A model generated the notes under the pieces. That model did not search any database. It was not told where the DNA came from and saw nothing but the letters and a program-made list of their open reading frames with translations. From Oceanispirochaeta crateris (lineage in GTDB: Bacteria > Spirochaetota > Spirochaetia > DSM-2461), in NCBI RefSeq assembly GCF_008329965.1, contig NZ_CP036150.1:3266439-3330438 (forward strand): a stretch of DNA of 64,000 bases, given 5' to 3'. Below, piece by piece: positions 5,558 to 27,152 of the stretch (position 1 is the stretch's first letter; the number at the start of each line of letters is the position of its first letter). The translations under genes and the position numbers were made by a program.

Positions 5558-6730
5558 TCAATCTCGTGGTGGAATTGCACGAACCATGATGATTCCCTCG
5601 ATCTTTTTGAGATCTGCAATCAATTTTTCCGTAGGAGCCTTGTCAGTGTCTATGATGTTATAGGCAATTCCTTCTTTGTGCTTATTCATCATATCCTGAA
5701 TATTGATCTCATTCTCCGCCAGGAGGGTAGATATCTGACCCACCATATTGGGGATATTCTTATTGGCGATGATCAACCTGTGGCCTCCCACATAATCCAT
5801 AGTACAGTTGGGGAAATTGACGGCATTCCGAATGTTTCCCGTTTCGAGGAATATCCTCAACTGATCGGCAGCCATGACGGCACAATTCTCTTCGGCTTCG
5901 GGAGAGGAGGCTCCCAGATGAGGTATGGTGATAATTTGGGGGTTTCCCAACAGTTCTCCTTCGGGGAAGTCGGTGATGTAATAACTGATCTTTCCCGATT
6001 CAATGGCTTTTTTGAGACTATCATTGTTTACAAGGCCCCCTCTTGCGAAGTTCAGGAGCCGTGTTCCTTCCTTCATCTGGTCAAATTGATGCTCATCGAT
6101 TACGGATCTGGTTTTATCATTTAAGGGGATATGGAGTGTAATATAGTCTGAGTTGGCAATCAAAGAGTCCATGGAGTTGGCTTTTTTTACTTCCGGTGAG
6201 AGTCCCCAGGCTGCGTTTATGGAGATAAAAGGGTCAAATCCGGTGACTTCCATACCAAGGGCCAATGCCGCATTTGCAACAAGGACTCCAATGGCTCCCA
6301 ATCCAATGATTCCCAATTTTTTGCCCTGAACCTCTGGACCTGAAAATCGTGATTTCTCTTTTTCTACAAGGCGAGAAACCTCCTCTGCCGGGTCCAGGCT
6401 TTGAACCCAGTTGATTCCGGCATTTATATTTCTAGAGGAAAGGAATAATCCAGTGAGCACTAATTCTTTTACACTATTGGCATTGGCTCCCGGAGTGTTA
6501 AATACTACGATCCCTTGGTCTGTGCAGTAGGACACAGGAATGTTGTTCACTCCGGCCCCAGCCCGGGCAATGGCCTTGACGGTGGGTGGGATGTCATCCT
6601 CTCCCACCTTGTAGCTACGAACAAGGATGGCGTCTGGATGAGACAGGCCGGAGGCTGTTTCATAGTCTTCTCTTGGCAATCTCTCCAGCCCCTTGGCAGA
6701 GATCTTATTCATCGTCTGTATGGTGTACAT
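5558..6730 (-). CDS. serA: D-3-phosphoglycerate dehydrogenase
   Basis: Catalyses the first step of serine biosynthesis, oxidising 3-phosphoglycerate with NAD+. The Rossmann motif is LGIIGLGAIG (about residue 142), followed by NFARGGLV and HLGASSPEAEEN, which carry the family's catalytic arginine/histidine region. A C-terminal ACT domain (PNMVGQISTLLAENEINI) suggests feedback by serine. I chose the ATG at 6730 because AAGGA lies 7 nt upstream; an in-frame GTG at 6736 is too close to that site. The gene starts 2 nt after the rex-like stop codon, so the two genes are almost certainly cotranscribed. This couples serine synthesis to the Rex-type operator. Confidence 0.95.
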   Translation of the reverse strand: MYTIQTMNKISAKGLERLPREDYETASGLSHPDAILVRSYKVGEDDIPPTVKAIARAGAGVNNIPVSYCTDQGIVVFNTPGANANSVKELVLTGLFLSSRNINAGINWVQSLDPAEEVSRLVEKEKSRFSGPEVQGKKLGIIGLGAIGVLVANAALALGMEVTGFDPFISINAAWGLSPEVKKANSMDSLIANSDYITLHIPLNDKTRSVIDEHQFDQMKEGTRLLNFARGGLVNNDSLKKAIESGKISYYITDFPEGELLGNPQIITIPHLGASSPEAEENCAVMAADQLRIFLETGNIRNAVNFPNCTMDYVGGHRLIIANKNIPNMVGQISTLLAENEINIQDMMNKHKEGIAYNIIDTDKAPTEKLIADLKKIEGIIMVRAIPPRD

Positions 6731-6732
6731 CT

Positions 6733-7407
6733 TCACTTCCTTTGTTCCGGTTCTACCGGGTTTTTATGTTCTGACCCGTTTATACGGGAGGCCATGCTAT
6801 AGAATCCCAGGCTCAGATCAGCCTGGTAGTAAAAGATCTCTTCCGGGACGATAAGGGGGCAGCTTGTCAGGTTTATGATGCCTTTGGCACCGCCCTCTAA
6901 CATTCTCATCATGTTTTTTTCGGGTAATGCGGTTTCGCTTGCCAGAATCCCTATGCGTATTTTCTCCCTTTCGAAGACTTCTCTGATTTCATAAGAGGGG
7001 TAGAGAGCCACCCTTGTCTCTGTTCTTTCGAGTCGGTTTTGGCTGCCATCGAAGGCGGCACAGATGCGAATCCCCTGAAATCCTTCCGATTCCCTTATGA
7101 GGATCGAACCCCAGCTATCCAGTCCGGCCATTCCTGCTCTAAGATTTTTCATGAGATATAATTTTTCTCTGAGTCCATTCTGTAAAGAGAGGGCTTTATA
7201 TCCTCTCCCGTCAGCCCGGCAGCCCAGTATATTCAGATCTTTACGGATCAATTCCGCAGAAGACCCTATGAGTTCTGCCAATTCTCCGGATGTATACCTG
7301 GGGGAGGCCCCCTCATCCTGAATTCTATTTAAGGAAATAAAGAGGCGGAGCATCCTGAAGTGTGCTGATTCTGAAAGGTTTTCCTTTGACATCCTGATTT
7401 GGATCAT
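6733..7407 (-). CDS. rex: Rex-like redox-sensing transcriptional repressor with altered NAD-binding motif
   Basis: An about 224-residue relative of Rex, the dimeric repressor that senses NADH/NAD+. The N-terminal winged helix is well preserved (LIRKDLNILG then GRGY, matching the Rex pattern VRKDLxxFG...GxGY). The NAD domain is recognisable through ICAAFD, GAKGIINLT and VPEEIFYYQADLS. The expected GxGxxG loop reads GLDSWG, so the second glycine is Asp; NADH response may be changed. The start is uncertain: ATG 7407, ATG 7392 and TTG 7431 are all in frame and none has a good ribosome-binding site. A Rex-type palindrome lies about 30 bp upstream, implying autoregulation of rex-serA. Confidence 0.82.
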   Translation of the reverse strand: MIQIRMSKENLSESAHFRMLRLFISLNRIQDEGASPRYTSGELAELIGSSAELIRKDLNILGCRADGRGYKALSLQNGLREKLYLMKNLRAGMAGLDSWGSILIRESEGFQGIRICAAFDGSQNRLERTETRVALYPSYEIREVFEREKIRIGILASETALPEKNMMRMLEGGAKGIINLTSCPLIVPEEIFYYQADLSLGFYSMASRINGSEHKNPVEPEQRK

Positions 7408-7436
7408 ATAGGCGGGAGAGGATCTGGACAAGCAAT

Positions 7437-7458
7437 ATCTGTGAAATATTTCACAGAT
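7437..7458. promoter_or_regulatory. Perfect 22-bp Rex-type operator palindrome
   Basis: A fully symmetric 22-bp sequence, with half-site ATCTGTGAAAT followed by its reverse complement. The core TGTGAAATATTTCACA matches the published Rex consensus of Gram-positive bacteria closely. It lies between the divergent rex-like gene and the sensor gene that begins near 7545, so it could control both promoters. Confidence 0.85.
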
Positions 7459-7544
7459 GGAATAAAAAAGATTGTGAGTGGGAAATTCTATTTCATTTTA
7501 TGGGTCTCAGGAGCGATATTTATGTCATAGGGCAAAAGAAACGA

Positions 7545-8879
7545 ATGAATACAATAGTAACGATTTGCAGCGACTCAATTATCAATCAGGGCATTGAACG
7601 GGTAATCCAAAATGAGTTCCCAGGTGATTATAACCTCCATTTTACCGACAACATCACCGAAGCCCTGGATATCCTGAATTTCGAACTCCCAGAACTGACG
7701 ATCCTCCATCTGTCCGATAAGAATCTGGATTTGACATTTCTAAAGGAAAAGATCATGGAAGATTCTTGGCTTCATAGTTCAGGAATCATCGGGGTATACG
7801 ATTTGGGACGGCATGAGGAGGCACGGCTCCTGGATCAATTCAGAAGCCTGAATTTATTGACTCTCCTTGATTACTCCAGAATCCGCACCCATTTTGCCAA
7901 GGTCCTTTCAATTGTTTATGCCAATAGGCAACTCATTTATCAGAATGAACTGGCGGACAATGTTCTTGGAAAATTTTCGGGTGCTTTCAATATCTCCAAC
8001 GCCGATTACCCCGTGGTTTCTGTGTATACAGGTTTGCTATCAATCAATATGGTGCGGGCGGGGCGGGTCTCGGATGAGGAACGGTTCAAGCTCCAGATGG
8101 CTCTTTCAGAGCTGGTTCTTAATGGAATTGAACATGGAAACTGTGGCATCAGCCGGGAAGACCGGGATCGTCATCTGGAGTCAGGCGGCAACCTCCTCGA
8201 ACTGATTAATGAAAGGAATCAAGACAAGGAAATCAGGAAAAAGCGGGTTCTTCTTGAGTGGATACTTTCTGAACAGGAATCCCGTTTTGTGATTCATGAT
8301 GACGGTGAAGGTTTTGATGTAAGCGCCTACAAGGCTTCTCTTCAGAATGTGAATTCAGAAAATTTGAAGGGCCGGGGAATCCTTCTGTCCAGGGTTGTGT
8401 CTGACAGGATTTTATTCAATAAGACGGGGAATCAGGTGACTCTGATCATGAATCACAGACATCTTCATGAACGACTCACTCCTGCAGGATTCTCTACGGA
8501 AGAGATGCTCATTGTCAAACCGGGAGATATTGTGGTTCGTGCAGGGGACCCTAGTGATTCAATTTTTTATATCTCAAGCGGTATTTACAAGGTTGTTAAC
8601 CATGGAAATATTGTCGGGAAGATATCACCAGAGGATGTTTTTCTAGGTGAAATGGCCTTTCTTTTGAACCGGGACCGTAGCGCATCTGTCATTGCCGAAA
8701 CAAAGGGGAAATTGATTCGAATTCCTAGAAAGTCTTTTATTAAAGTCTTGAAACTCTACCCCCAGTACGGGCTGTTTATCAGCAGGCTTTTGGCAACAAG
8801 GCTGAAACGGACCAATGATTTTATTGTGACCTCTCTCGGTGAAAAAGAAGATGATGAAGCTAAGGATTTGACAATATAG
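7545..8879 (+). CDS. Receiver-like / HATPase / cyclic-nucleotide-binding domain regulator
   Basis: A multidomain cytoplasmic signalling protein. Residues 1-115 resemble a response-regulator receiver fold. The middle (about 165-310) is an RsbW-type HATPase, with N-box ELVLNGIEHGN and G1 box HDDGEGFD, then a GRGILLSR loop. The C-terminal third is a cyclic-nucleotide-binding-type beta-roll (VKPGDIVVRAGDPSDSIF, then FLGEMAFL and RDRSASV). I preferred ATG 7545 because the receiver fold begins there; the frame opens at ATG 7500. The combination suggests an anti-sigma-factor-like kinase or switch modulated by a ligand or by partner binding. The gene lies divergent from rex across a shared palindrome. 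Its ligand and target are unknown. Confidence 0.8.
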   Translation: MNTIVTICSDSIINQGIERVIQNEFPGDYNLHFTDNITEALDILNFELPELTILHLSDKNLDLTFLKEKIMEDSWLHSSGIIGVYDLGRHEEARLLDQFRSLNLLTLLDYSRIRTHFAKVLSIVYANRQLIYQNELADNVLGKFSGAFNISNADYPVVSVYTGLLSINMVRAGRVSDEERFKLQMALSELVLNGIEHGNCGISREDRDRHLESGGNLLELINERNQDKEIRKKRVLLEWILSEQESRFVIHDDGEGFDVSAYKASLQNVNSENLKGRGILLSRVVSDRILFNKTGNQVTLIMNHRHLHERLTPAGFSTEEMLIVKPGDIVVRAGDPSDSIFYISSGIYKVVNHGNIVGKISPEDVFLGEMAFLLNRDRSASVIAETKGKLIRIPRKSFIKVLKLYPQYGLFISRLLATRLKRTNDFIVTSLGEKEDDEAKDLTI

Positions 8880-25673: not shown

Positions 25674-27152
25674 TCACATCATCAGTTCTGATTTGAAAGC
25701 CTGCGCCAGTATGTCCTTCATCCGATCCAACTGTACTTCTGATGTGATCCTGAAGAATTTGAGGACGTCTTTATCCAGTTGATCGTAAACAATATTTTGT
25801 TTTTCCAGGTCGCAGAGGGCATTGGCCAGGTAGACACAATTGACTACTTTTCTATACTCGGGTTTGGAGAAATGAGGTTCATGATGATAGCGAATCGCTT
25901 GTACAAGCGATTCAGAAAAATTCCACTTTTCGGCGATTTTTGCTCCAATCTGGGCATGGTTGAAACCACCAGCCAAATTCTCAAAAAGGCCGGCCGAAAG
26001 AGATTTCTCTGTGGCAAATTCTTGAATCTTCTCTAAGAGTTCCGGATGAATGCTGGAAAAGACGATCTTACCCATGTCGTGAAGGATACCGCCGACATAA
26101 GCATCATCGATGAAGTCCTTGGTCAGTTTGACATTCCTGGCCAGGCTGAATGAATAAAAGGCAGTTCTGTGGGCATGGTCCCAGAGCTCTTTTTTCTGAG
26201 GAAGGTTCAGGATCTTTTCTGATCCATAAGAGTATAGGAGGTTTTTCAATCCTCTTAATCCAACCATCTTAACCGCATCGGCTATATTATCGACCCTGTT
26301 GGGCAGCATAAATTTCGCCGAGTTTACAACACGCAGAAGGTCGGCCGTCAGAGACGGGTCGGTACTGATGCGCCGGGCAATCTCGTTGATATCTGAATTG
26401 GGGTCATTGATGAGCTGCTGTATGACTGTGATATTTTCTGGAAATTGAGGCAGAGCTTCAATCTCAGAAACAATTCTGGATGTCAGCATGTCCATCTCGT
26501 CCAATTTGACCTGGGCTATGGGGATGGTCAAAGAGGCGATTGTTTCTCCGCTGTTTCCATCTATTTCAAAGGCCTCCTCATCAAGGCCCATTTTCTTTAA
26601 CATGAGGATTAGAATGACGATACCCAGTCCCGCCCCTTCTGAGTCATCCAATACTTCTGAGAACGCCTCTTCCATGCTGTCAAATGCTCTGGATCTGGCT
26701 ATGCGGTCGTAAATACGCATCTGTTCTTTTCTTGTAATTTGTACGTTGTTTCGGATGGCTATTCGGAAGTTCGAGCTAAAGGTGTGAAAAGTAACCTTTA
26801 CATAGAGGCCTTTTTGTTTTTGGAGTTCCAGGTAATGGTCAATCCTATCCATCGTTTCGGATTTGAAGTTTTTCATTCCTTCCTGATAGTCGTCTTTGCT
26901 GTCTAAAGAAAGGCCTTTCTCTTCAAAGTACACTCTTTTGGTGTTGGCTTTTTTGGCGTTAACCGCCAGCTCTTTCAGGCAATAGGCTAATCTATCTACC
27001 AAAGTCTCTTGACCCAATTCTCTCAGGTACACTCCAAGAATATCCTCAAGGTAGACCTCTGTATCATGATTAAGTTTATAAGACGTGACGGTGACGGGCA
27101 CCGATTTTTGTATGGCAATTTTGATCTTATCTGAAATGTTGGTAGGAGGCAT
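25674..27152 (-). CDS. HATPase-like and HDOD domain signalling protein
   Basis: A 492-residue fusion. The N-terminal ~215 residues hold a histidine-kinase-type ATPase remnant: an N-box-like CLKELAVNAKKAN (about residue 63) and a glycine box GAGLGIVILILMLKKMG (about residue 173). Residues ~225-440 form an HDOD domain, with DPSLTADLLRVVNSAKF, the HD signature GGILHDMGKIV and HHEPHF. HDOD proteins act in signalling without known phosphohydrolase activity. Fusion with a HATPase is unusual outside spirochetes as far as I know. AAGGA precedes the ATG. The output and partner are unknown. Confidence 0.85.
   Translation of the reverse strand: MPPTNISDKIKIAIQKSVPVTVTSYKLNHDTEVYLEDILGVYLRELGQETLVDRLAYCLKELAVNAKKANTKRVYFEEKGLSLDSKDDYQEGMKNFKSETMDRIDHYLELQKQKGLYVKVTFHTFSSNFRIAIRNNVQITRKEQMRIYDRIARSRAFDSMEEAFSEVLDDSEGAGLGIVILILMLKKMGLDEEAFEIDGNSGETIASLTIPIAQVKLDEMDMLTSRIVSEIEALPQFPENITVIQQLINDPNSDINEIARRISTDPSLTADLLRVVNSAKFMLPNRVDNIADAVKMVGLRGLKNLLYSYGSEKILNLPQKKELWDHAHRTAFYSFSLARNVKLTKDFIDDAYVGGILHDMGKIVFSSIHPELLEKIQEFATEKSLSAGLFENLAGGFNHAQIGAKIAEKWNFSESLVQAIRYHHEPHFSKPEYRKVVNCVYLANALCDLEKQNIVYDQLDKDVLKFFRITSEVQLDRMKDILAQAFKSELMM

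Follow-up and report, generated by a model that had tools for sequence, protein, structure and literature searches.

The window, a 64,000-nucleotide stretch of the Oceanispirochaeta crateris genome, contains at 6733-7392 on the reverse strand a gene for a 219-residue Rex-family protein, the putative repressor of a serine operon ('serRex'). This length is counted from ATG 7392, which is probably the translation start rather than TTG 7431 (6733-7431, 232 residues), because relatives begin there, at a similar distance from the operator. The stop codon (TGA, 6735-6733) is separated by 2 nt from the ATG (6730) of serA (5558-6730, reverse strand), which encodes a D-3-phosphoglycerate dehydrogenase-like protein. 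The serA product matched Pfam 2-Hacid_dh_C (6.5e-38) and TIGR01327 (4.2e-80, though under the cut-off of the model), and its match to the ACT domain was weak. A perfect 22-bp palindrome, ATCTGTGAAATATTTCACAGAT, lies at 7437-7458, 44 bp upstream of the probable rex start; its 18-bp core, CTGTGAAATATTTCACAG (7439-7456), is found about 64 bp upstream of ATG 7392. A divergent gene on the forward strand (7545-8879; probable start 7545, longer open reading frame from 7500) encodes a HATPase_c_2 domain joined to a C-terminal cyclic-nucleotide-binding domain.

Sequence comparison supported the proposal of the first-pass annotation that the gene encodes a Rex-family repressor, though a divergent one. 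Nine NCBIfam Rex models matched across the protein (E down to 2.5e-21), with a score (76 bits) below every curated cut-off (at least 126), and the Rex N-terminal domain PF06971 scored 18.9 bits, its cut-off being 27. No match to the CoA_binding domain was found with Pfam. The only PDB matches were Rex chains (E down to 2.7e-10). The contacts made with DNA and NAD in the ternary complex of Thermotoga maritima Rex have been listed (PMC8836258), and we mapped them onto the lineage by alignment. All six DNA contacts considered (R12, S33, R48, K49, G61, and Y64, T. maritima numbering) were kept in the six genomes of the genus. Like the Rex proteins of T. maritima, T. thermophilus, and B. subtilis, the window protein combines a winged-helix N-terminus with an RKDL recognition motif and a Rossmann-type C-terminus, and a Rex-type palindromic operator is present at its own promoter. 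A model made with AlphaFold2 from three sequences was poor (pLDDT 46.7).

The perfect symmetry of the palindrome over 22 bp and its resemblance to a Rex operator, both pointed out previously, were borne out. When the window was shuffled 20 times by mononucleotides, no perfect palindrome with arms of at least 11 arose, while the real window held one more, GAATCGCTTGTACAAGCGATTC, at 25892-25913. The latter lies within a coding frame (25674-27152, reverse strand) that by eye specifies a protein of the HDOD type, which includes a kinase-like ATPase portion. Without mismatch, TGTGAAANNTTTCACA occurred once in the 4.01-Mb single-contig genome, at the window palindrome. A search of the genome for a wider regulon gave one-mismatch sites at 609926, beside a transposase gene, and at 2785084, inside a coding sequence; no convincing second target emerged among these one-mismatch sites.

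We sought relatives of the protein in 60 related genomes and then in 297 genomes of the class. While a search of genome contigs with the single sequence found no relative, a search with the genus alignment found two loci. In both genome sets, the best-scoring relatives headed an operon with serA or serC-serA. Among the 72 lineage loci fetched, sampled by similarity to the serA-linked alignment and not by linkage, 66 had serC or serA directly after rex, as compared with none of 12 canonical Rex loci with either gene in the fetched stretch. Eight further loci with a lineage Rex were found in other classes of the phylum, where serC and/or serA followed in seven and a contig end cut the eighth; three more loci from these classes carried a canonical-type Rex unlinked to serine genes. 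Spirochaetia and other classes of the phylum thus share a separate Rex lineage, whose gene comes first in operons of the type rex-serC-serA or rex-serA. Its members share a signature, FDxxxN(R/K)xE, after the second strand (AAFDGSQNRLE in the window protein), which canonical Rex proteins do not have. In a tree, the window genus formed a clade (SH-aLRT 100) that grouped with the serA-linked rows, apart from the 12 canonical rows. It sits in a group (support 98) that also holds genera of the same family with intact loops, and whose internal branching order this quick tree does not settle. The operon with serA proposed in the first-pass annotation is supported, but serA is not the unusual partner that it was taken to be.

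The operator was also a property of the lineage. A scan of the region between -300 and +150 bp relative to the called start, with TTGTGAANNNNTTCACAA as the consensus and a threshold of 12/14, found a site before 46 of the 71 lineage loci tested. The lineage operator reads YTGTGAA-W4-TTCACAR, its four centre bases being A or T nearly always, and it stands ahead of most rex-(serC)-serA operons. The window operator matched the consensus at 12 of 14 positions, and an operator was found at the equivalent place in each of the six genus members (at least 12/14 in five, 11 in the sixth), reading CTGTGA...TCACAG in five of them and CTGTGA...TCACAC in one. The serC gene of the window's genome lies elsewhere, at genome position 1080781, and no operator was found there.

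The genome contains three further Rex genes above the Pfam cut-off, with intact loops (GTGNLG, GVGNLG, and GCGNLG), and the window site resembles the general Rex consensus. One of these paralogues might thus bind the palindrome while the altered gene drifts, an explanation that we consider highly improbable. One of the paralogues adjoins a nuoE-like gene, and throughout the six genomes of the genus its orthologues are accompanied by a different conserved site, TTGTGA-N6-TCACAA (with a single deviation in one), with T/A outer bases and a mixed centre as opposed to the C outer base and A/T centre of the serine-linked site. In three genomes that were 98-99% complete and yielded just one Rex gene, the serine-linked one, the operator was kept before rex-serC-serA. 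The dN/dS of the window rex ranged from 0.07 to 0.31 where it could be calculated, with dS near saturation; such purifying selection indicates that the gene does not look like a decaying one.

Further evidence against binding by a paralogue came from a change of residue and operator within the lineage. In eight proteins of one other family, His replaces Lys49 in the recognition helix (RHD for RKD), and the operator reads TGTTA for TGTGA on at least one arm in all eight cases and on both arms in five. Any change at this base was seen in 11 of 60 other loci (Fisher 1e-5 against 8 of 8), though about 2 changes from Lys49 to His suffice to explain the tree, and the number of events is therefore small. 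As Lys49 of T. maritima Rex contacts this very G (PMC8836258), the base that changed is the one predicted from the contact, which ties the protein to the operator. Together with the distinct site of the paralogue and the operators of single-Rex genomes, this favours binding by the serine-linked protein itself, as judged from sequence.

The loop that is GxGxxG in canonical Rex reads GLDSWG in the window protein (codons at 7108-7125, reverse strand), with Asp at the second glycine (Asp105 when counted from TTG 7431), as noticed in the first-pass annotation. This sequence was found in five of the six genomes of the genus, among which it is invariant at 57-71% protein identity, and the sixth has GLEPWG. 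The annotation had taken intact loops in related spirochaetes as an argument against its proposal, and this argument holds in part: at the equivalent locus, the sister genera do have intact loops (GLGPLG, GLGSLG, or GLGILG), while the altered loop is fixed in the window genus. The link with serA is thus independent of the altered loop. The second glycine is also replaced by Asp in four members of another genus (GLDMLG, GLDMFG), by Asp or Glu in two members of a third family (GLDDWA, GLEEWV), and by Asn or Ser in four others; the tree requires at least seven (about seven) changes at this position. Because the intact loop is commoner and spread over the phylum, it is probably the ancestral state, and its retention in most lineages, including the sister genera, indicates that the altered loop is derived. 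The rex-serC-serA loci with intact loops, of which nine were taken as examples, share the locus, the operator, and FDxxxNxxE with the window, but differ from it by GxGxxG, replaced by the Asp/Glu loop in the window genus, and by the presence of serC in the operon.

Other parts of the NAD pocket had changed as well. Equivalents of the NAD contacts G91, Y100, V153, and P154 were found in none of the six genus members (the alignment being uncertain by a residue around Y100), whereas G89, G94, D115, and K120 (the latter as Arg or Lys) were found in all six. The window protein keeps D128, the Asp that binds ribose, as well as the basic R133; in the genus, D128, N132, and E135 are retained, and position 133 is Arg or Lys. 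P154 and Y100 were both absent in all 16 proteins with another residue than Gly at the second position, as compared with 17 (P154) and 33 (Y100) of the 56 proteins with a Gly loop. On raw counts that ignore kinship, loss of Gly was associated with loss of P154 (Fisher 2.8e-7) and of Y100 (Fisher 0.0015), but a phylogenetically controlled test of co-loss was not significant, the second trait rarely differing in 6 independent pairs. This fits with a loss of the glycine on a background that already lacked P154 and Y100.

The textbook example of a bacterial sensor for the NADH/NAD+ ratio is Rex. We consider it fairly probable that the window protein is an autoregulator dedicated to serine synthesis, descended from an NADH-responsive Rex, and that canonical NADH sensing has been given up in this genus. 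It would be a dedicated repressor from the old lineage that heads rex-serC-serA operons; its dimer would bind the palindrome at 7437-7458 and repress its own rex-serA operon, as suggested by the conserved residues, the position, the operator, and the analogy with Rex. The ancestor most likely released DNA upon binding NADH. In the genus, the NAD pocket appears to have been remodelled, with replacement of the second loop glycine by Asp or Glu and loss of residues on the nicotinamide side, so that canonical NADH sensing has most likely been lost. Release would then be controlled by another small ligand, perhaps one containing adenosine because the contact residues on the adenosine side remain, or by no ligand. 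A more daring version of this explanation, which we put forward only tentatively, is that serine-tied Rex proteins lost the NADH site several times while keeping the operator, and that in this genus the protein was repurposed as a non-redox Rex responding to a different metabolite, one connected with serine or one-carbon metabolism and possibly containing adenosine. The earlier suggestion that the protein may have departed from the usual response to NADH was supported, in that the altered loop is shared by the whole genus and accompanied by the absence of further NAD contacts.

A changed second glycine alone is compatible with dinucleotide binding, and the Asp loop could be tolerated in a protein that still senses NADH/NAD+ and controls serA according to redox state with a changed affinity or ratio response. 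SerA makes NADH, so that control of serine synthesis by NADH makes sense, and this explanation also agrees with the GLGxLG loops of relatives at the same locus and with the retention of D128 and R133. We nevertheless find it unlikely in view of the replacement of the second glycine and the disappearance of the equivalents of Tyr100, Val153, and Pro154 in all six genus members; in a Rossmann fold, a carboxylate would be expected to sit where the diphosphate packs. The loss of NAD contacts with retention of DNA contacts, and an operator that is the sole exact copy in the genome, would also be expected of a constitutive autorepressor that holds rex-serA at a constant low level without any ligand, which is one branch of the explanation that we prefer. 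We give this branch somewhat less credit still than persistent NADH sensing, since GLDSWG is invariant in five such diverged genomes, and the retention of D128, N132, E135, and Arg/Lys at 133 suggests a remaining function for the pocket.

The window protein thus differs from canonical Rex by GLDSWG instead of GxGxxG, the lack of equivalents of Tyr100, Val153, and Pro154, the FDxxxNRxE signature, its apparent dedication to rex-serA, and its scores under the curated Rex cut-offs. Control of serine genes by a Rex protein is not as new as the first-pass annotation had thought. In Caldicellulosiruptor bescii, Rex was shown by gel shift to bind ahead of a unit (ATHE_RS10680) that comprises a class V aminotransferase and a phosphoglycerate dehydrogenase (PMC6391272). 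Both systems have a Rex site upstream of a serine-type unit, but the C. bescii protein is a global, NADH-responsive regulator of many operons, whereas the window protein would be a dedicated paralogue within the operon, with a remodelled NAD pocket. No paper on a link between Rex and serA in spirochaetes was found in the searchable literature, which is weak evidence of novelty because most subscription papers fall outside such a search. A conserved serine-operon branch of Rex would tie serine synthesis to the redox state across the phylum, and its altered versions would represent natural experiments on the loss or exchange of the ligand by a dinucleotide sensor whose DNA target stays the same. 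For such proteins, the automatic annotation 'redox-sensing repressor Rex' may be wrong.

Two observations were made on neighbouring genes. At genome positions 3357000-3371000, a nuoE-like gene and a small HATPase gene are transcribed away from a canonical Rex gene, and the region between them contains a conserved site, TTGTGACTTCTGTCACAA, that belongs to this paralogue. Control of the HATPase-cyclic-nucleotide-binding gene from the rex operator, suggested in the first-pass annotation, is a candidate link only. Among the loci fetched, this neighbour was seen next to rex in the window genus alone, and the operator occurs elsewhere without it. Within the genus, the HATPase-cyclic-nucleotide-binding protein shows 74-87% identity and is encoded divergently from rex-serA in all six genomes.
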